From the NCBI GenBank assembly GCA_900320055.1, contig ONQS01000010.1, positions 41,266-105,265 of the forward strand: a stretch of DNA of 64,000 bases. Direction: 5' to 3'. Made by a program: the position numbers and the translations under genes. Origin of the DNA: an uncultured Prevotellaceae bacterium (GTDB taxonomy: Bacteria > Bacteroidota > Bacteroidia > Bacteroidales > Muribaculaceae). Numbering within the stretch: the first letter of the stretch is position 1; each line of letters begins with the position of its first letter. Below the pieces are notes generated by a model that saw nothing but the letters and a program-made list of their open reading frames with translations, was not told the origin of the DNA and did not search any database. Positions 4,868 to 62,314 of this stretch are shown in pieces.

Positions 4868-6175
4868 ATGGCAAAAGAAATCGTTAAGCCCGCTACCGGC
4901 AAGTTAGGTATTATGGTAGTAGGATTGGGTGCAGTAAGCACCACCTTCATGACTGGTGTTATGATGACCCGCAAGGGTCTTGCAAAGCCTGTAGGCAGCA
5001 TGACACAGTATGACAAGATTCGCGTAGGAAAAGGCGAGAACAAGAAGTATTTACATTATAATGAAATCGTCTCGATGCCCAGCCTCGATGACATCGTGTT
5101 TGCCGCATGGGACGTATACCCCGCTAACGCATATGAGAGCGCCATCAATGCCGAGGTATTGAAGGAGAAGGACATTGAGCCCGTTAAGGACGAGTTGCTG
5201 AAGATCAAGCCCATGAAGGCTGCTTTTGACAAGAACTACGCCAAGCGTCTTGACGGCGACAACGTGAAGCAGTGCAAGGACCGCTGGGACATGACCGAGC
5301 AGGTTCGCGAGGATATCCGCAACTTCAAGAAGGAGACCGGTGTTGACCGCGTGGTTGTTCTGTGGGCCGCATCGACCGAGATCTACGTAGAGCCCGACAT
5401 GAAGTACCACGGCACCATCGCTGCCCTGGAGCAGGCCATGAAGGACAACGTAGTTGACAAGGTTGCTCCCTCGATGTGCTATGCCTATGCAGCACTGATG
5501 GAGGACTGCCCCTTCATCATGGGTGCCCCCAACACCACCGTCGACATTCCCGCCATGTGGGAACTCTCAGAGAAGACCCAGGTGCCCATCGCAGGTAAGG
5601 ACTTCAAGACTGGCCAGACTCTGGTGAAGAGCGGTTTTGCTCCCATCATCGGCACCCGCATGCTGGGTCTGAACGGTTGGTTCTCGACCAACATCCTGGG
5701 CAACCGTGACGGTCTCGTCCTCGATGAGCCCGCCAACTTCCGCACCAAGGAGGTCAGCAAACTGTCGACGCTCGAGTCGATTCTCGTTGCCGACAATCAG
5801 CCCGACCTGTACAGCAACTACTACCACAAGGTACGTATCAACTACTATCCTCCCCGCAACGATAACAAGGAGGGTTGGGACAACATCGACATCTTCGGCT
5901 GGATGGGCTATCCCATGCAGATCAAGATCAACTTCCTGTGCCGCGACTCTATCCTCGCTGCTCCCTTGTGCCTCGACCTGTGTCTGCTCATGGACCTGGC
6001 TCACCGTGCTGGCCGCTACGGCATTCAGCGCTTCCTGAGTTTCTTCCTGAAGAGCCCGATGCACGACTACACCAAGGACGAAATCCCCGTAAACCACCTG
6101 TTCCAGCAGTATGTGATGCTGAAGAACGCCATCCGTGAGATGGGCGGCTATCCTGCAGACGAGGAGATCGACTAA
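4868..6175 (+). CDS. ino1: myo-inositol-1-phosphate synthase
   Basis: The enzyme converts glucose 6-phosphate to 1L-myo-inositol 1-phosphate in an NAD-dependent reaction, the first step toward inositol lipids. The 435-residue protein starts with the NAD-binding segment VVGLGAVSTTFMTGV. Conserved family blocks follow: NTTVDIPAMWEL, AGKDFKTGQT, GLNGWFSTNILGNRDG and DIFGWMGYPMQIKINFLCRDS. The length fits the Bacteroidetes form. The gene is transcribed alone, with its own promoter and a strong terminator at 6214-6247. The CDP-alcohol phosphotransferase needed to make phosphatidylinositol or inositol sphingolipids is not in this window. Confidence 0.9.
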   Translation: MAKEIVKPATGKLGIMVVGLGAVSTTFMTGVMMTRKGLAKPVGSMTQYDKIRVGKGENKKYLHYNEIVSMPSLDDIVFAAWDVYPANAYESAINAEVLKEKDIEPVKDELLKIKPMKAAFDKNYAKRLDGDNVKQCKDRWDMTEQVREDIRNFKKETGVDRVVVLWAASTEIYVEPDMKYHGTIAALEQAMKDNVVDKVAPSMCYAYAALMEDCPFIMGAPNTTVDIPAMWELSEKTQVPIAGKDFKTGQTLVKSGFAPIIGTRMLGLNGWFSTNILGNRDGLVLDEPANFRTKEVSKLSTLESILVADNQPDLYSNYYHKVRINYYPPRNDNKEGWDNIDIFGWMGYPMQIKINFLCRDSILAAPLCLDLCLLMDLAHRAGRYGIQRFLSFFLKSPMHDYTKDEIPVNHLFQQYVMLKNAIREMGGYPADEEID

Positions 6176-6410: not shown

Positions 6411-8852
6411 ATGCAACAAATAATCCAAGAAGATCTGGCTGCAAAAAATGCCGCCATCGAAAAGAAGAAAAAACGCGCACGTACCGGCATTAAGTGGGAC
6501 CGCCTGTTTATGGCCTGTGCCTACAACTGGTATTGGTTCATCCTGTCGATGATTGTCTGCGCAAGTATTGCCTATCTGTATGCCAAGACCCAGCCCCAGT
6601 ACTTTATCGCTAGGTCTTCTATCCTGATCCGTTCCAAGGACAGCGCCCAAGGCACACCGTCGATGACATTCAGCGACCTGGGCCTGAACACGGTTAACTA
6701 CATCCCCAACGAGCCCTACAAACTGCGTTCTTCCAGAGTCATGGAAATCGTTGTCAATTCGTTGGGACTCAATGTTCAGTACTACGGACATATGTTCCTG
6801 CGCGATGTCAACATCTACAAGAACACGCCAGTCCAGGTCACCCCGCTCAAGGAAGTGACCCGCGGCTTCTCGATGACCATCGTGCCCAAGAGCAACGATG
6901 AGTTTGAGTTCAGAGTCAATGACGGCGATTGGAAGAAAGCGCACTTTGGCAACAAGGTGAGCACCGATTTTGGTCCCGTTGCCATCACCAAGACCAAGAA
7001 GTTTGGCGAGAACTTTATCGACTACACCGTCATTGTCAACATCACCAACCCCTCGAGCATGGCCCGCTCGCTGGCGTCATCGCTCATGGTCGAGAATGCC
7101 GACCAACACAGTGATGTGCTCAACCTCGCCATCCGCGGCCAGAACGCCGAAATGTGCGCCGACATCCTCAATGCCCTGGTAGTGGCATATAACCAAGAGG
7201 GTATCAACGATATGAACCAGGTGGCCCGCAACACCGAGGCGTTTATCGCCGAGCGCGTTGCCGATCTGTCAAAGGACCTGAGTGGCGTGGACAACGAGGT
7301 GGCAGTGCTGACCGCCGGCTCAGTCAACTCACGCATGTGGGGCAGCGAGGGCGTCGCGATGGCACAGATCAACAACAACGAGGATGTGACACTGGAAATC
7401 AACCTGGCTTCTCAGATTCGCCGCTTCATCGCCAATATGGGTAATGGCGAGTTGATTCCCGCCAACACGGGTATGAACAACGCTGGTATCATGAACCAGA
7501 TCCAGCAATACAACGAGGCCATGCAGGAGTATCAGAAGATTGCCGCTACCTCGAGTTCGGAGAACCCCGTCATGAAGGAACTCATCAACTCACTGGCTAG
7601 CCAGAAGAAAACGATTCTGGCCAGCCTTGATAACTACATGGGATCACTTCGCACCCGTCAGGGTCAGGCACAACGCCTGCAGAACCATGCTCAGAGCAGC
7701 ATGACGGCCAACCCGTCGCATGAGAAGGCCATCACCGAGGTTACCCGTCAGCAGAAAATCAAGGAGCAACTGTACCTCTACCTGCTGAACAAGCGTGAGG
7801 AGAACGCCCTGCAGATGGTCATCACCGAGCCCAACGCCAAGGTGATGGAACCTGCCATCCCCAACCCTGCTCCCGTTACCGCACCGCTGACGCGTATCGT
7901 GCTCACCGGTATGATTATCGGTCTGCTGATTCCCGCGTTTATCCTGTATGGTGTATTCTGGTACTTCTCACTTGACAAGACAATCCACACCCGCCGCGAG
8001 ATTGAGGAAGTGTGCGACATTCCCATCTTGGGTGAGTTGCCCGCCAAGAAGAGCAACGTCACCGGTGAGATTGTTGTTAACGAGACCTCTAACGACCGCA
8101 TGAACGAGGCCTTCCGCATCGTCAGGAGCAACCTTGACTTTGTCACCGATCAGAACAAGCCCGAAGGCGAGGCGACCGTGATCCAGTTTACCTCGACCAT
8201 GTCTGGTGAAGGTAAGAGTTTCGTGGCCGTCAATCTGGCATTGTCATATTGCTTCGTGAACAAGAAGGTCATCGTAGTCGACCTCGACTTGCGTAAAGGT
8301 AAGTTCTCAGAGTATGTCGGCGTGCAGGACGGTATCGGCGCATCGGCCTACCTGTCAGGCAAGGTGACCGACATCGACAAGGTGATCCACCACGATGCCT
8401 TGCACGAAGGCTTCGACATCATCAGTGTCGGTGCCATTCCTCCCAACCCCACTGCTCTGTTGCTGAGCGAGAACATGAACAAGATGGTCGAGGAATTGAA
8501 GAAACGCTACGACTTCGTCATCCTCGATACCGTGCCGTTCAACCTGATTGCCGACGCCGCTGTTGTCAACCGCCACGTTGACCTGACCATCTACGTCGTG
8601 CGCGACGGCAGGGTTGAGCAGACGTTCATGTACGAACTCGAGCGCCTGTCCGAGGAAGGCAAGATCAAGAACTTGACCATCCTTGTCAACGACATCAAGG
8701 TGAGCAAGACCCGCTACAACTACTCCTATGCCTACGGTTATGGTAAGGGCTATGGTTATGGTTACGGTTACGGCTATGGCTACGGCTACGGTGGTGACAG
8801 TGGCGGCTATTATGTTGACGACACTCCCAAGGAGAAACCCACCAAGGGATAA
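6411..8852 (+). CDS. Wzc-type polysaccharide chain-length protein and tyrosine kinase
   Basis: This 813-residue inner-membrane protein controls polymerisation and export of a capsule or exopolysaccharide. Membrane helices near residues 38-58 and 495-520 flank a long periplasmic Wzz-type domain. The cytoplasmic BY-kinase domain has Walker A (TSTMSGEGKSF, about residue 597), Walker A' (VIVVDLDLRKG) and a Walker B-like VILDTVPF near 705. The C-terminus is a run of alternating Gly and Tyr from about 766, with some 14 tyrosines as autophosphorylation sites. A Wza-type outer-membrane export gene normally precedes wzc but is missing here. The UDP-glucose dehydrogenase gene follows 22 nt later and is probably cotranscribed. 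Confidence 0.9.
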   Translation: MQQIIQEDLAAKNAAIEKKKKRARTGIKWDRLFMACAYNWYWFILSMIVCASIAYLYAKTQPQYFIARSSILIRSKDSAQGTPSMTFSDLGLNTVNYIPNEPYKLRSSRVMEIVVNSLGLNVQYYGHMFLRDVNIYKNTPVQVTPLKEVTRGFSMTIVPKSNDEFEFRVNDGDWKKAHFGNKVSTDFGPVAITKTKKFGENFIDYTVIVNITNPSSMARSLASSLMVENADQHSDVLNLAIRGQNAEMCADILNALVVAYNQEGINDMNQVARNTEAFIAERVADLSKDLSGVDNEVAVLTAGSVNSRMWGSEGVAMAQINNNEDVTLEINLASQIRRFIANMGNGELIPANTGMNNAGIMNQIQQYNEAMQEYQKIAATSSSENPVMKELINSLASQKKTILASLDNYMGSLRTRQGQAQRLQNHAQSSMTANPSHEKAITEVTRQQKIKEQLYLYLLNKREENALQMVITEPNAKVMEPAIPNPAPVTAPLTRIVLTGMIIGLLIPAFILYGVFWYFSLDKTIHTRREIEEVCDIPILGELPAKKSNVTGEIVVNETSNDRMNEAFRIVRSNLDFVTDQNKPEGEATVIQFTSTMSGEGKSFVAVNLALSYCFVNKKVIVVDLDLRKGKFSEYVGVQDGIGASAYLSGKVTDIDKVIHHDALHEGFDIISVGAIPPNPTALLLSENMNKMVEELKKRYDFVILDTVPFNLIADAAVVNRHVDLTIYVVRDGRVEQTFMYELERLSEEGKIKNLTILVNDIKVSKTRYNYSYAYGYGKGYGYGYGYGYGYGYGGDSGGYYVDDTPKEKPTKG

Positions 8853-10289: not shown

Positions 10290-12599
10290 CTATTTGACCA
10301 CAACCTTGCGCGAGCAGATATCGCCCGCCACCACATAGGTACCTGCAGGCAACTTCACCGTCTGGTCGCCAGGCTTGGATACGGTGGCACGCAATTCCGC
10401 ATCCATATCGTAGATTTCCAAGACCTCTCCGTCGCTCAGATGCTCCACGAGGATGCCACCTGCGGTCGGCACGGCGTCCCACATCATGGACATCGATGAC
10501 GGAGCCGACAGCAGCAGGTCGATCAGTGCAGTCACATCGGTAATGCTGACCGTATGGTCGCCATTGACGTCGGCAGCCGACGGGTCGACCGCAGAACCGC
10601 CATCGTTCAACAGATAGTCGATCAGCGAGGTCACATCGGTAATACTGATGGTTCCGTCACCGTTCACATCGCCCTGCAAGTGAGGCTTGGCAGTAACGGT
10701 ACCATTCACATCGGCATAGGCGCTTGCCTTGCCCGTTGTGGCCGAAACCAAGCCCTCGAAGTCGCCGACAGCGCTTGTAGCAGCCAAGCGTACGTAGAAC
10801 ACTTCTCCTGAGGGATCGAGTGTGAGCGTGCGGCTCCAACTGCGTTTGTCCAGGCTTAACAAGAAGTTGCCCTCAACGCTCAATGTGATGTTCTCGGTAT
10901 TGTTCTCGGAGGTAACCGTTGCCGACACGACTGTCGATTCACCATCCTGCTCAGCGGTAATGGCCGGAATCGAAGTGATGGCAAGCGACGGCTCGGCAGG
11001 CACTACAGGATTGCTCGTGATAGCGATATCATCAATGTTGAGACGCGCTCCAGCGGTTTGCAGGATTTTGAAGCGCACCCGGCCCGTTACATTCACGTTG
11101 AAGATGTACTGTTGCCATGTCGCGTTAGGCTTGCATGTGGCAGCGGGCGTCCAGGTGCTGCCGCCATTGGTGCTGTATTGCAGTTGCAGAGTAGGCGCCG
11201 TCTCACTGCTGCTCCAGTTAGCGGCATAGAAGGTCACCTTGCTGGCGCCATCGTCCAAATCCTCGGCCATCTCGATATAGGAATCCGATGTCTTGCCGAA
11301 GCGGCAACTCAACTTGTCATTACAATTGGCATCGCCACTCCAGATGCCTACATCAGAAGTGTTCCACTTGAAAGCATGGCCCTGAATCGAGGTCGTCGCG
11401 TAACTATCATATCCCGTGCATCCTTCCCATGTCTCAACAACCTCGGTGCCACCAGTCTGTCCGCCAGCGTTGTAGGTAGCGGTAAGGGTGACGTTGCTCG
11501 AGACCTCGGTGCTGGAGATGGTCAGTCGGCCCGTCGCATTGGCAGCGGTGCCGTTATAGGTGACCGTTACACTTGAGCCGGCATTGACAGCAGCGGCCGT
11601 CAGCGTCGCTGGCGACACACTGAAACCCGTACCAGAAACCGAGACTGTAACAGCCTTGGTGAGGTAAACGCCCTTGACGGTGACAGTCTTGCTCACCCCA
11701 GAGCCGGTGTTGGTTCCCACGTTGATGGTCGAGCCATTGGCCGGCGACGAGAGTGTGGGCGTATTGGCCGTGCCGCCATTCCAAGTGTTACCCGTCTGAT
11801 TGCCCCAGAGGTACTCGGCCAATTCGGGATGATCGATAAAGGGGTTACGGTTATGCTGAATGCCATAGACGGCTTCGTTGCGGTTAGACTCGAGGGTGCT
11901 CACCGGATCGTTGCGGTGCCATTCCAGCAACTGGCTTATGGCCCACGGCGTGAGATGCTTGTATGACGAGTTGGTAAACACTGCAGAGCCTTCAGTCTTA
12001 GTCCACGAGCCCACACGATCCATATAGCGCACTACCATATAGAAATAGGTGCGGGCAAAATCTCCCTTATACTCATCGGCAACCTCAAACACCGTTCCCG
12101 AGTATCCGTTATGGGTGCAAGTTCCCAACTTGCCAGTGCCCCAAGTGGTTCCACGATCACAGTCGCCAAAGGGGTAATTACCGCGTTTGCTGTTCACAAA
12201 GCCATCAACGGGATACATGTGATACAAATCTGTATACATGGTGTCAGTCTCACCGTTATTACCGCCCCACCAACTGTTGGGCACCGAGTGCTCACGATTG
12301 TAACAGTTGCCTACGTCACTATATGTTCCGCACTGATCGGTACTGTAAGTGAATTGGGAGTTGGAGTAGCGGTCGATGATGGTTGTACCATTACAGTCCG
12401 TTGTCTTGAACTTTTCCCACAGTTTGTTATAATAGATCATGTAGTGACCCTTAATCTTCTGATGGAGGCTGAGCATCAGTTCCCGATCAGCCTTGCCCAT
12501 AGCGGTGCTGTAATAACCATTGGGGATTGCCGCTGATGACTGAAGGCCGATGAACAGGGCCATAACTATCAACAGCAAGTAGTGCAGATTCTTCTTCAT
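10290..12599 (-). CDS. Secreted endonuclease I family protein with dockerin and T9SS-type tail
   Basis: This 769-residue secreted protein begins with a signal peptide ending near SSAAIPNGYY. The endonuclease I (EndA/NucM) domain covers about residues 25-270 and contains the catalytic motif REHSVPNSWWGG and the metal-site segment SKRGNYPFGDC. A beta-sandwich segment (about 280-385) and a jellyroll-like module (about 390-540) follow. A two-repeat dockerin-type EF-hand unit lies at about 642-700 (GDVNGDGTISITDVTSLID). The last 60 residues, ending GTYVVAGDICSRKVVVK, look like a type IX secretion sorting domain. Extracellular DNA or RNA degradation is the likely role. Having both a dockerin unit and a T9SS tail is unusual. 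Confidence 0.85.
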   Translation of the reverse strand: MKKNLHYLLLIVMALFIGLQSSAAIPNGYYSTAMGKADRELMLSLHQKIKGHYMIYYNKLWEKFKTTDCNGTTIIDRYSNSQFTYSTDQCGTYSDVGNCYNREHSVPNSWWGGNNGETDTMYTDLYHMYPVDGFVNSKRGNYPFGDCDRGTTWGTGKLGTCTHNGYSGTVFEVADEYKGDFARTYFYMVVRYMDRVGSWTKTEGSAVFTNSSYKHLTPWAISQLLEWHRNDPVSTLESNRNEAVYGIQHNRNPFIDHPELAEYLWGNQTGNTWNGGTANTPTLSSPANGSTINVGTNTGSGVSKTVTVKGVYLTKAVTVSVSGTGFSVSPATLTAAAVNAGSSVTVTYNGTAANATGRLTISSTEVSSNVTLTATYNAGGQTGGTEVVETWEGCTGYDSYATTSIQGHAFKWNTSDVGIWSGDANCNDKLSCRFGKTSDSYIEMAEDLDDGASKVTFYAANWSSSETAPTLQLQYSTNGGSTWTPAATCKPNATWQQYIFNVNVTGRVRFKILQTAGARLNIDDIAITSNPVVPAEPSLAITSIPAITAEQDGESTVVSATVTSENNTENITLSVEGNFLLSLDKRSWSRTLTLDPSGEVFYVRLAATSAVGDFEGLVSATTGKASAYADVNGTVTAKPHLQGDVNGDGTISITDVTSLIDYLLNDGGSAVDPSAADVNGDHTVSITDVTALIDLLLSAPSSMSMMWDAVPTAGGILVEHLSDGEVLEIYDMDAELRATVSKPGDQTVKLPAGTYVVAGDICSRKVVVK

Positions 12600-55416: not shown

Positions 55417-55559
55417 ATTTGTTGAGATTTGTGACTGATTTGTTGGGATTTTTCCGAGCGTAGCGAGGACACTTAAACGGGCGGTAAGGATGCCCGCATG
55501 CGGGCAAAAATCGTAACAAATCAAAAACAAATCAAGACAAAGCAAAGTTGTGTAATATG
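55417..55559. repeat. Repeat copy A (type 1), upstream of the GxxExxY gene
   Basis: About 140 bp. It shares with the other copies a left part (gagatttgtgactgatttg), then CCGAGCGTAGCGAGGACACTT, the type-1 segment AAACGGGCGGTAAGGATG, the 16-bp palindrome TGCCCGCATGCGGGCA and an A-rich end. Its last bases contain the ATG of the GxxExxY gene (55557). Confidence 0.9.
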
Positions 55560-55988
55560 ATTATAGATTTTGACGGACGCTTTCCCTTCTTCCACGAAAT
55601 AACAGGCGTGGCAATGGAAATTCATCGACAATTTCATGGAGGTTTGCTTGAATCGGCCTACGAAGCCGCTCTGGCTTACCTGCTCCCGCAGAAAGGTTAT
55701 CTGGTTGAGCGACAGGTTTATCTGCCAATTTATTGGAAAGAAGTGAAGTTAGATCAGAACTATCGAATGGACTTGGTCATTAACAAAGAGATTATAATAG
55801 AACTCAAGGCCGCTAAGTATCATGGAAATGACGATCGACGCCAACTCTGGAATTATATGAACATTACTCATTCCAAGTATGGAATGCTGATTAACTTTGC
55901 TCCTGATGGTCTATACTCCGAGTGGTATATCCGTCATAACAATGGCGCTATAGATAAAGTGAAATATCATCAACAGCAACTTGACTGA
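55557..55988 (+). CDS. GxxExxY family PD-(D/E)XK nuclease-like protein
   Basis: A 143-residue protein of the GxxExxY family. The name motif is seen in GLLESAY (G-x-x-E-x-x-Y), and the PD-(D/E)XK core in YRMDLVINKEIIIELKA (Asp, then E-x-K), so the active-site residues are intact. The biochemical activity of the family is not established to my knowledge. The gene is clearly richer in A+T than its neighbours, suggesting transfer. A TTG at 55548 would add three residues; the ATG at 55557 gives the usual start. The ATG lies at the very end of repeat copy A, and copy B begins about 13 nt after the stop codon. No promoter of the usual type is visible. Confidence 0.85.
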   Translation: MIIDFDGRFPFFHEITGVAMEIHRQFHGGLLESAYEAALAYLLPQKGYLVERQVYLPIYWKEVKLDQNYRMDLVINKEIIIELKAAKYHGNDDRRQLWNYMNITHSKYGMLINFAPDGLYSEWYIRHNNGAIDKVKYHQQQLD

Positions 55989-56001
55989 GATAAAAGAATA
56001 A

Positions 56002-56186
56002 ATTTGTTGAGATTTGTGACTGATTTGTTGGGATTTTTCCGAGCGTAGCGAGGACACTTAGACAGGCGAAAAGGATGCCCGCATGCGGGCAAAAATCGCA
56101 ACAAATCGCGAAAAGGATGCCCGCATGCGGGCAAAAATCGCAACAAATCATAAACAAATCAAGACAAAGCAATAGTGGTGTAATAC
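56002..56186. repeat. Repeat copy B (type 2), downstream of the GxxExxY gene
   Basis: The same layout as copy A but with the type-2 segment GACAGGCGAAAAGGATG. It carries an internal 42-bp direct duplication starting at 56066 and 56108, which doubles the 16-bp palindrome. Confidence 0.9.
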
Positions 56187-56321
56187 GAGATTTGTGACTG
56201 ATTTGTTGGGATTTTTCCGAGCGTAGCGAAGACACTTAAACGGGCGGTAAGGATGCCCGCATGCGGGCAAAAATCGTAACAAATCAAAAACAAATCAAGA
56301 AAAAGTAAAGTTGTGTAATAT
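56187..56321. repeat. Repeat copy C (type 1)
   Basis: 135 bp, in direct tandem with B. It has the type-1 segment and the same 3' end as copy A (gttgtgtaatat). One base of the GCGAGGACA box differs (GCGAAGACA). Confidence 0.9.
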
Positions 56322-56441
56322 GAGATTTGTGACTGATTTGTTGGGATTTTTCCGAGCGTAGCGAGGACACTTAGACAGGCGAAAAGGATGCCCGCATGCG
56401 GGCAAAAATCGTAACAAATCAAAAACAAATCAAGAAAATTG
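56322..56441. repeat. Repeat copy D (type 2)
   Basis: About 120 bp, directly abutting C. It has the type-2 segment and an A-rich end that fades out about 20 nt before the miaA start codon. Confidence 0.85.
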
Positions 56442-57431: not shown

Positions 57432-57475
57432 TTTGTTTCTGAAACGCTGCAAAAATGCTGCATTTCAGAAACAAA
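57432..57475. terminator. Bidirectional terminator after miaA
   Basis: TTTGTTTCTGAAA at 57432-57444 and its perfect complement at 57463-57475 enclose a second small GC hairpin. It lies between two converging genes. Confidence 0.85.
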
Positions 57476-60808: not shown

Positions 60809-62314
60809 ATGGACGAGAATCTGAAAAAACCGAAAAGGCCTAGAATCGGTGAAACTAACGGCAATTTTGAAGACAATGTTGAAGGACGCTATGAGAAAGT
60901 AGAATATAGCGCCCACGAACCTCATCAGGGAGACGAGACGGCAACTCATGCCGAGGGTTTCCAGCAGCAAGAAGGTTACCAGCCCCGTCAGCAGGGCGGT
61001 TACCATCGCCAGGGTGGATATCAGCGCCAGGGCGGCTACCAGCGCCAGGGCGGTTATCAGCGCCAGGGTGGTTATCAGCGCCAGGGCGGCTACCAGCGTC
61101 AAGGCGGTTATCAGCCCCGTCAGGGCGGTTATCAGCAGCGCTATCAACAGCCTATGTCTGCCGGTGAGCACGACGCTACCAACCCTAGCGACAACAGCAC
61201 AATGAACACCGAGCAACAGGGCGGCTACCAGCCTCGTCAGCAAGGCGGCTACCAGCCCCGTCAACAGGGCGGTTACCAGCCTCGTCAACAGGGCGGCTAC
61301 CAGCATCGCCAGCAAGGCGGCTACCAGCCTCGTCAGCAAGGCGGCTACCAGCCTCGTCAGCAGGGCGGTTACCAGCCTCGTCAGCAGGGCGGTTACCAGC
61401 AGCGCCAAGGCGGCTACCAGCAGCGTCAGGGTGGCTACCAGCAGCGTCAGGGCGGTTACCAGCAGCGCCAGGGTGGCTACCAGCAGCGCCAAGGCGGTTA
61501 TCAGCAGCGTCCCAAGCGCCAGGGTCCCAAGCCCCAGATGCGATTCACACCCAAGCCCCAGCGCATCATTTATGAGGAGCCCGCTATCGATCCCAACATG
61601 GAGGTTCGCCTCAACAAGTTCATGGCCAACGCCGGCATCTGCTCGCGCCGCGTGGCTGACGAATACATCCAGAAGGGTCTGGTCAAGGTCAATGGCAATG
61701 TTGTGACCGAACTCGGCATGAAGATCACTCCTAAGGACATCGTTGAATATAATGGCGAGGTTGTCACCACCGAGAAGAAGTGCTACATCCTGCTCAACAA
61801 ACCCAAGGATTGCGTCACCACCAGTGATGATCCCAACGGCCGCAAGACCGTTATGGACCTTGTGAAGGGAGCCTGCGAGGAGCGCATCTATCCCGTGGGT
61901 CGTCTCGACCGCAATACCACTGGCGTGCTCCTGCTCACCAACGATGGTGACCTGGCCGCCAAACTCGCCCACCCCCAGTATGTCAAGAAGAAGATCTACC
62001 AGGTGTGGACCGACAAGCCCATCAGCGAGGAGGACATGCAGCACATCGCCGACGGTGTTGAACTCGACGATGGCCCCATCCACGCCGATGCAGTAAGTTA
62101 CGTATCTCCCACCGACCGCAAGCAGGCCGGCATCGAGATTCACTCTGGCCGCAACCGCGTCGTGCGCCGCATATTTGAGTCGCTGGGCTATCACGTGGTG
62201 AAACTCGACCGCGTCTACTTTGCCGGTCTCACCAAGAAAAACCTGCCCCGCGGTCGCTGGCGCTACCTCACTCAGGAAGAGGTCAACTTCTTGAAACAAA
62301 ACTCGTTTGAATAA
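60809..62314 (+). CDS. RluB/RsuA-family pseudouridine synthase with long GGYQ-repeat N-terminus
   Basis: A 501-residue protein. Residues 1-50 are charged. About 55-245 are a low-complexity tail with some 22 Gly-Gly-Tyr units ([21 protein letters not shown]), rich in Gln and Arg. The S4 RNA-binding domain begins near Met264 ([20 protein letters not shown]). The catalytic domain has Asp367 in [20 protein letters not shown], then [10 protein letters not shown] and [18 protein letters not shown]. The core should isomerise uridine in 23S (or 16S) rRNA. The tail resembles RGG/prion-like regions that bind RNA and condense. A short N-terminal extension is common in Bacteroidetes, but this one is long. 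The tRNA-Val gene lies upstream. Confidence 0.9.
60972..61510 (+). repeat. Coding tandem repeats of 18, 21 and 24 bp
   Basis: Two blocks of in-frame repeats encode the GGYQ tail: 18-bp units (ggttatcagcgccagggc type) at about 61003-61110, and 24- then 21-bp units at about 61218-61510, with a non-repeat linker between. Synonymous changes between units keep the peptide constant. Unit number is likely to vary between strains. Confidence 0.85.

Follow-up and report, generated by a model that had tools for sequence, protein, structure and literature searches.

What does a small nuclease-like gene do in the middle of an array of palindromic repeats? In the window, the 64,000-nt stretch of DNA analysed here, the 1,061-bp gap between the end of a dipeptidyl peptidase IV-type peptidase gene (55401) and the start of miaA, which encodes an IPP transferase (56463), is taken up by a GxxExxY gene and repeats. 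An earlier sequence-only reading had likened this arrangement to REP sequences and their RAYT enzymes and supposed that the protein could mobilise, cut or maintain the repeats. We therefore examined the locus, its own genome and related genomes for the structure of the repeat unit, its association with the gene and its presence or absence at orthologous sites.

A GxxExxY gene in the loop of a palindromic unit

Profile searches with the window protein matched TIGR04256 (GxxExxY) at 112 bits against a cut-off of 35 and PF13366 (PDDEXK_3) at 105 bits against a cut-off of 22, and the GxxExxY, D, ExK and QxxxY motifs were all present, bearing out the claim that the nuclease residues are intact. The gene was also A+T-rich as claimed, with a GC content of 41% vs 54% for the whole window. 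Four repeats had been said to fill the rest of the gap, and a 137-nt repeat unit was indeed found in four in-register copies starting at 55424, 56009, 56187 and 56322, with copies 2 to 4 being 75, 98 and 86% identical to the first. The palindrome that every repeat was said to carry, TGCCCGCATGCGGGCA, occurred in all four, but five times in total without mismatch (55491, 56076, 56118, 56254 and 56389) because of a partial duplication within the second repeat. No additional match was present in the window with up to three mismatches allowed, and 0 of 100 shuffles reached five matches (largest, three).

As the hallmark of the repeat, this palindrome proved to be only part of the unit: a second hairpin in each repeat (CCGAGC-GTA-GCGAGG or GCGAAG, 4 copies) and two mutually inverted AT-rich arms per repeat (36-nt arm pairs 78–81% complementary) had been missed. 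The unit runs in the order GC hairpin, A-rich arm, loop, inverted T-rich arm and GC hairpin. It divides into two types of half element, the first consisting of the GC palindrome followed by the A-rich arm with ACAAATC every ~10 nt, and the second of the inverted T-rich arm followed by CCGAGC-GTA-GCGAGG. Three such elements stand in tandem, and the GxxExxY gene occupies the loop of the first (Table 1). We rejected the exact 16-bp palindrome as the unit, as relatives carry other hairpins and arms. When folded as single-stranded DNA, each of five such units was stronger than all 200 shuffles, with z from -4.9 to -6.0. Searches of the locus found no Rfam family up to E 1 and no match to its DNA in plasmid DNA.

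Table 1 Features of the gap between the peptidase gene and miaA in window coordinates
Feature	Start	End	Strand	Composition
Upstream half element	55416	55468	+	T-rich arm and GNA-loop hairpin (55454–55468)
Gene-bearing element	55491	56053	+	Palindrome at 55491 through hairpin at 56053
Gene-bearing element, left end	55491	55541	+	GC hairpin TGCCCGCATGCGGGCA (55491–55506) and A-rich arm AAAAATCnnAACAAATCnnnnACAAATC (to 55541)
GxxExxY gene	55557	55988	+	143 aa; ATG 55557, stop 55986–55988; TIGR04256, PF13366
Gene-bearing element, right end	56001	56053	+	Inverted T-rich arm (56001–56038) and hairpin CCGAGC-GTA-GCGAGG (56039–56053)
Extra partial half	56076	56107	+	Palindrome (56076–56091) and short A-arm
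Gene-less element 1	56118	56231	+	Palindrome, A-arm (56133–56168), loop, T-arm (56187–56216), hairpin (56217–56231)
Gene-less element 2	56254	56366	+	Palindrome, A-arm (56269–56303), junction GTAAAGTTGTGTAATATGA, T-arm (56322–56351), hairpin (56352–56366)
Downstream half element	56389	56438	+	Palindrome and A-arm; end 24 bp before miaA start

The loop of gene-less element 1 is 18 nt long and similar to the 5' leader of the GxxExxY gene. In gene-less element 2 the junction leading into the T-arm is, on direct reading, nearly identical to the gene leader with its start codon, GCAAAGTTGTGTAATATGA; from the letters of these junctions, both copies in the window look like gene-deleted derivatives of the gene-bearing element. 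The left-end half (hairpin and A-rich arm) was also found in gene-less copies of relatives, which run hairpin, arm, short loop, inverted arm and hairpin. In several genomes, such gene-less window-type copies lay beside a dockerin-type C-terminal end on the opposite strand, by our own reading (L073 at 5650–5970, 7820–8130 and 10460–10780, L078, L082 and L084), and these copies may belong to a repeated unit of larger size.

The own genome, a 2.63-Mb draft of 73 contigs (92.8% complete), held the array gene as its sole GxxExxY match and the window repeat only within the array (5 matches within about 1.04 kb). No dispersed copies were found in this draft outside the array, where collapsed copies could be missed because the assembly is split into 73 contigs. 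As it stands, this confinement speaks against a literal REP analogy in the own genome.

Conservation and fold of the GxxExxY protein

In an alignment of 106 proteins, with loci chosen by similarity, the G of GxxE was conserved at 97%, its E and Y at 100%, the D at 100%, E-x-K at 100 and 99%, and Q and Y of QxxxY at 100 and 99%. The catalytic D, E-x-K and Q-xxx-Y occur in the order expected of PD-(D/E)XK nucleases, with a matching fold and agreeing helix-strand order. GxxExxY is thus apparently a PD-(D/E)XK nuclease with a conserved, active-looking catalytic centre.

An AF2 model built from 7 sequences had a moderate pLDDT of 69. Its best fold match was 4ic1 (SSO0001, which we take to be a Cas4) with an E of 1.3e-4, but the match was loose (TM 0.49, rmsd 12.9). 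Only two chains matched at E ≤0.001, both of them SSO0001, and a restriction-endonuclease-like protein and a lambda-type exonuclease followed near E 0.01; a PDB sequence search with the protein gave no match up to E 1. A QxxxY after ExK marks the Cas4/RecB/lambda-exonuclease branch of the fold. Sharing this motif and the loose model-based match, GxxExxY would be most like the Cas4/lambda-exonuclease branch, from which it differs in its size of about 120–145 aa and in having no conserved cysteine; no iron-sulphur cluster is expected, because no cysteine is among the conserved positions. An intron- or intein-borne homing endonuclease of the PD-(D/E)XK type was ruled out, the gene being free-standing and the locus matching no Rfam family up to E 1.

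Inverted repeats accompany GxxExxY genes in other genomes

We compared 51 loci with proteins sharing 28–100% identity with that of the window (the window locus itself, 29 best-match loci, 20 picked among the weaker matches listed, and L042, of unconfirmed genus), by scoring the inverted repeat between the 250 bp on each side against 60 shuffles. The flanking inverted repeat beat all 60 shuffles at 47/51 GxxExxY loci vs 8/137 control genes, the latter drawn from the window and from contigs chosen because they hold gene-less copies, and a score of at least 30 was reached at 43/51 vs 2/137. The exceptions that failed to beat the shuffles were L030, L032, L088 and L103. Inverted repeats at the gene are thus general among relatives, as the sequence-only reading would require, though mostly of another sequence than the window palindrome: a palindrome of its type was seen at the gene in the window and L008–L010 alone. 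By eye, arm sequence varied by subfamily.

Beyond the genus, 21 of 30 returned phylum loci (100 shuffles), 12 of 19 further loci and 2 of 5 plasmid loci passed the inverted-repeat test, and arms were visible by eye in several of those that failed (9/30, 7/19 and 3/5). The arms there were mostly CACAGAG or CGCAAAG arrays, with CACATAG, ACCGATT and GAATT types among the others (by eye). Bacteroides gave a further arm-flanked example, and arm-flanked GxxExxY genes were also found outside Bacteroidota, in Gemmatirosa, where a second copy was frame-broken, and in Sphingomonas, between fabD and fabG. A Treponema locus with an 11-bp pair only and a Fusobacteria locus with mainly direct repeats did not pass the test.

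Co-occurrence across genomes pointed the same way. In a phylum sample of 148 genomes, 74 carried a GxxExxY gene (73 above the family cut-off), and we counted arrays of three CRCRRAG motifs separated by gaps of 2–4 nt, overlapping matches included. Such arrays were present in 44 of the 148 genomes, 40/74 GxxExxY-positive vs 4/74 negative (Fisher p 3.5e-11, which like the other p-values here is optimistic because related loci and genomes are not independent), in agreement with the expectation that the repeats are rarer without the gene. There were 402 matches in gene-positive vs 8 in gene-negative genomes, and the reversed pattern, as a control, gave 4 in all 148 genomes; stratification by family (7 informative) left a p of 1.5e-4. 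Arrays of this class were absent from 34 of the 74 positive genomes and present in 4 negative ones. Within the genus, GxxExxY matches occurred in 88/101 genomes, and the window-type repeat was found in 16/37 genomes with the window's own subfamily (at least 51% identity to the window protein) vs 3/64 others (p 3.5e-6), again as the earlier proposal would have it. The corresponding contrast of 19/88 GxxExxY-positive vs 0/13 negative genomes has too few negatives, and we rejected it as proof that the repeat depends on the gene. These results support a general and specific link between GxxExxY genes and flanking inverted repeats.

Phased arms, hairpin loops and their relation to the protein

Among 66 arms, 5-mer self-matches numbered 83, 71 and 68 at offsets of 9, 10 and 11 nt, against an expectation of ~6.4 and a maximum of 20 in 200 letter shuffles. 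Such phasing is what sites along a single duplex face should give. In non-homologous contexts, arm similarity rose with protein identity (rho 0.31, permutation p 0.001; 3,094 pairs from 80 loci), and arm pairs scoring at least 30 made up 24/51 at ≥70% protein identity vs 0/2,142 below 40%. Moving as one unit explains this tracking as well as recognition of the arms does.

At 31 loci of the window's subfamily, GC hairpins stood beside [AG]AAAT[TC] at 61/158 motifs in flanks vs 30/664 in background and beside the arm motif on both sides at 22/31 loci, while c(GNA)g or c(GNNA)g loops on the strand running from T-arm to hairpin were found in 32/44 distinct hairpins, in 1 on the other strand and in 14/617 of the background, all of these counts including orthologous loci and so not being independent. 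Few DNA minihairpins are as stable as GNA and GNNA loops closed by C-G. One end of the unit has its loop on one strand and the other end on the opposite strand, which makes the signature symmetric for DNA and not for a single transcript. The window-type second hairpin had a GNA loop in 19/20 contexts, with all four middle bases seen; its partner, the 16-bp palindrome of the window, is one of the exceptions to the loop rule.

Filled, gene-less and empty sites

The gene was called by tblastn at the dpp–miaA, radical-SAM and L012 sites and by eye at scpB, and arms by eye throughout; apart from scpB, the radical-SAM gene, miaA and the peptidase, neighbours are named by our own reading. The site upstream of scpB was compared in 8 genomes of a single genus: 4 carried the gene (L257 having lost the Y of the GxxExxY motif), 1 kept a remnant with both arms (L255), and 3 were bare, with the neighbouring genes adjoining and the arms absent. 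Filled and empty sites alone give no direction of change; the bare sites belong to three more distant species of the genus, which suggests gain. Of 13 genomes compared upstream of a hemN-like radical-SAM gene, 4 had GxxExxY, 1 had arms with an apparent remnant (L325), and 8 were without GxxExxY, one of which, L331, bore another array. At the site upstream of the L012 neighbour (dsbD–sdaA-like, 30 loci of the genus) the gene was present in 9, L313 lacked it but kept the same arms, arms of other families stood at most of the remaining loci, and about three were nearly bare; the upstream gene usual at this site was not visible in L295.

In the 30 genomes ranking highest by miaA out of 101, the dpp–miaA gap held the gene in 7, of which 4, the window included, were of the window's subfamily and 3 of another subfamily with its own arms, and 11 of the 23 without the gene carried a gene-less AAGACAAGAAAGACAA-type pair. 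Thus, different families use the same intergenic sites. By eye, at least five array families occupied the dpp–miaA gap in these 30 related genomes (L138–L167), and we read it as an insertion hot spot or a region regaining arrays. Conversely, G147 and G174 had a similar element with 79% protein identity and nearly the same arms in non-homologous contexts. A target-site duplication could not be defined because the empty-site flanks and intergenic DNA are too diverged.

A proposed element and its nearest analogue

The closest likeness is to REPtrons, in which, according to the portions of PMC3116915 and PMC8266576 that describe them, a small nuclease-type gene (RAYT/TnpA-REP) has inverted palindromic flanks (REP/REPIN) with hairpin ends, gene-less inverted pairs occur, and the repeats track their protein. 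GxxExxY genes likewise are flanked by inverted repeats, have gene-less pairs and co-vary with their arms, so the REP/RAYT resemblance drawn by the sequence-only reading held for the architecture; dispersed copies were found in relatives but not in the own draft genome beyond the array. The REPtron enzyme is of the HUH/Y1 type and GxxExxY a PD-(D/E)XK protein; it matched PDDEXK_3 and GxxExxY only, with no HUH/Y1 transposase, which rules out a RAYT. Moreover, the GxxExxY arms are phased AT-rich or CACAGAG-type arrays in place of single short REP palindromes, and the gene lies inside the loop of the arm pair. By analogy, the element may nevertheless work like a REPtron despite failing the REPtron definition.

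On balance we favour, with modest confidence, the reading that GxxExxY is the single gene of a small, self-contained mobile-type element and recognises and cuts its own arms or hairpins, leading to movement. The starting points are observed ones: the unit structure and its generality, presence and absence at sites, arm tracking, the loops and catalytic conservation. The element would be an inverted arm pair with a short motif every 9–11 nt and the gene in the loop, capped on the outside by GC hairpins in the window's subfamily. The whole unit would enter and leave intergenic sites, and internal deletion of the gene would leave gene-less arm pairs. GxxExxY would recognise its own arms and hairpins and cut DNA there, after which host repair or replication might copy the unit into new sites, much as has been proposed for RAYT and REPIN. 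We infer all three of arm binding, arm cutting and movement driven by cutting.

A wider reading, which we offer tentatively and hold to be somewhat short of probable, is that GxxExxY mobilises palindromic elements in several phyla and carries both its own gene and arm pairs that have lost the gene to further intergenic sites. The nuclease would recognise helically phased arms and, at least in the window's subfamily, strand-specific GNA minihairpins at both 3' ends; widespread intergenic CACAGAG, CGCAAAG and CGAATT arrays would be their footprints and S23 a sister system.

These properties suggest a type of small mobile DNA element that has not been described before. It stands in a category of its own because it fails a defining feature of REPtrons, of 23S rRNA intervening sequences (IVS) and of homing endonucleases borne on introns, and no transposase is recognised in it. 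Among open-licence papers we found no link between GxxExxY and repeats, and the name itself was very rare, its mentions being apparently on other subjects. An abundant orphan family would thereby gain a testable substrate in its own repeat arms, the common CACAGAG/CGCAAAG-type intergenic arrays would gain a possible origin, and the long-known IVS would be joined by another family that shares their plan. If the enzyme moves the arms, this would be a self-spreading element on a nuclease fold; we know of no earlier use of the PD-(D/E)XK fold by such elements.

Alternative explanations

The alternative that survives best, though we consider it unlikely, acts at the RNA level: as in an IVS, the arms would fold in the transcript and RNase III would excise them, making the insertion harmless, with GxxExxY acting on RNA or riding as a passenger. 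The Coxiella IVS, which the relevant part of PMC4990558 places in 23S rRNA and calls a selfish element excised by RNase III, shares with the units described here a short element with a small ORF inside a hairpin. The GxxExxY units do fold into long hairpins (computed with DNA parameters), and inverted periodic arrays also surround genes of the IVS protein family (S23/four-helix bundle) in this phylum. However, GxxExxY sites are intergenic, the protein has a nuclease fold that is closest to DNA nucleases, and the array motifs are of another class; GNA and GNNA loops on opposite strands at the ends fit the symmetry of DNA ends and not one transcript, and the 9–11-nt phasing suits duplex binding, though an RNA duplex is possible too. 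The window element itself was ruled out as a 23S rRNA IVS, as it sits between dipeptidyl peptidase and miaA genes, its protein is not S23 and the locus has no Rfam match.

The S23 loci form a set of their own. Of 30 phylum loci matching TIGR02436 (L261–L290), with S23 genes inside inverted periodic arrays, 13 beat the shuffles and 10 scored at least 30, and their motif class differs (AGTAGTCAGTAG, AAGTATCAAGAT and TTAGCTTTTAGC). Five matches of the S23 family were found in the own genome. S23 genes in such arrays mean that S23 and GxxExxY may be parallel systems.

Also improbable in our estimation, and next in order, is that the arm pairs are MITE-like and moved by unrelated transposases or host recombination, with GxxExxY as cargo for defence or repair. 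Like MITEs and insertion sequences, the GxxExxY units have terminal inverted repeats, gene-deleted derivatives, and filled and empty sites (scpB, radical-SAM and L012-neighbour); they differ in lacking a recognised transposase, in their internally periodic arms and in their undefined target duplication. Dispersed gene-less pairs, of which the own genome has none beyond the array, were found in relatives and other genera, there partly inside MITEs, and several arm families and S23-type arrays share intergenic sites (by eye). The presence of arrays inside foreign-ended MITEs in G147, G199 and G149 (by eye) favours this explanation; array spread need not be the doing of GxxExxY, because some high-copy arrays sit there, and we rejected dispersed copies as proof of mobilisation by GxxExxY. 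Against a mere cargo gene, arm type follows the GxxExxY subfamily, arm pairs enclose GxxExxY much more often than they enclose other genes, the three empty scpB sites lack any arms, and a search with one Bacteroidota query found GxxExxY in 8 plasmid records out of 72,556 and in none of 50,697 phage records, unlike common cargo.

In the three genomes just named, many CRCRRAG arrays (L190–L206, L212–L225 and L230–L238) lay, by eye, inside MITE-like elements with terminal repeats unrelated to the arms (AGGGTAGTTCC, GAGGCTGTCTCA and AAGCCATCTCAAAA); it thus seems that other transposons took up palindromic arrays and multiplied them. Short-motif arrays are also known from TAACTGA heptamers, which the relevant portion of PMC4679880 describes as intergenic direct repeats in Beggiatoaceae, Cyanobacteria and Bacteroidetes that some close relatives lack at the corresponding intergenic position, and discusses as possible regulatory sites. 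They look related in form to the GxxExxY arms, and that portion of the paper makes no link to GxxExxY or S23.

A regulatory role, in which the arms are phased sites for transcription control by GxxExxY or a partner and gene-less pairs form the regulon, would suit short motifs phased near the helical turn and arms within gene clusters such as fabD–fabG. We regard it as very unlikely, since the arms are mirror images on both sides of the gene and absent at empty sites, relatives carry different gene-less copies at one and the same site, and a repressor needs no conserved nuclease active site. Coincidence, a piling up of repeats around one gene that their restriction to one locus in the own genome might suggest, is contradicted by the flank, co-occurrence and arm-protein association tests and deserves practically no credence.

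Other features of the window

Just past miaA, a 20-nt inverted repeat with a 4-nt loop (57432–57475, 90% complementary) is perhaps a terminator or another small element. Further downstream, an RNA pseudouridine synthase gene (60809–62314; PF00849, S4 domain) carries a long N-terminal low-complexity extension, (QGGYQPRQ)n.
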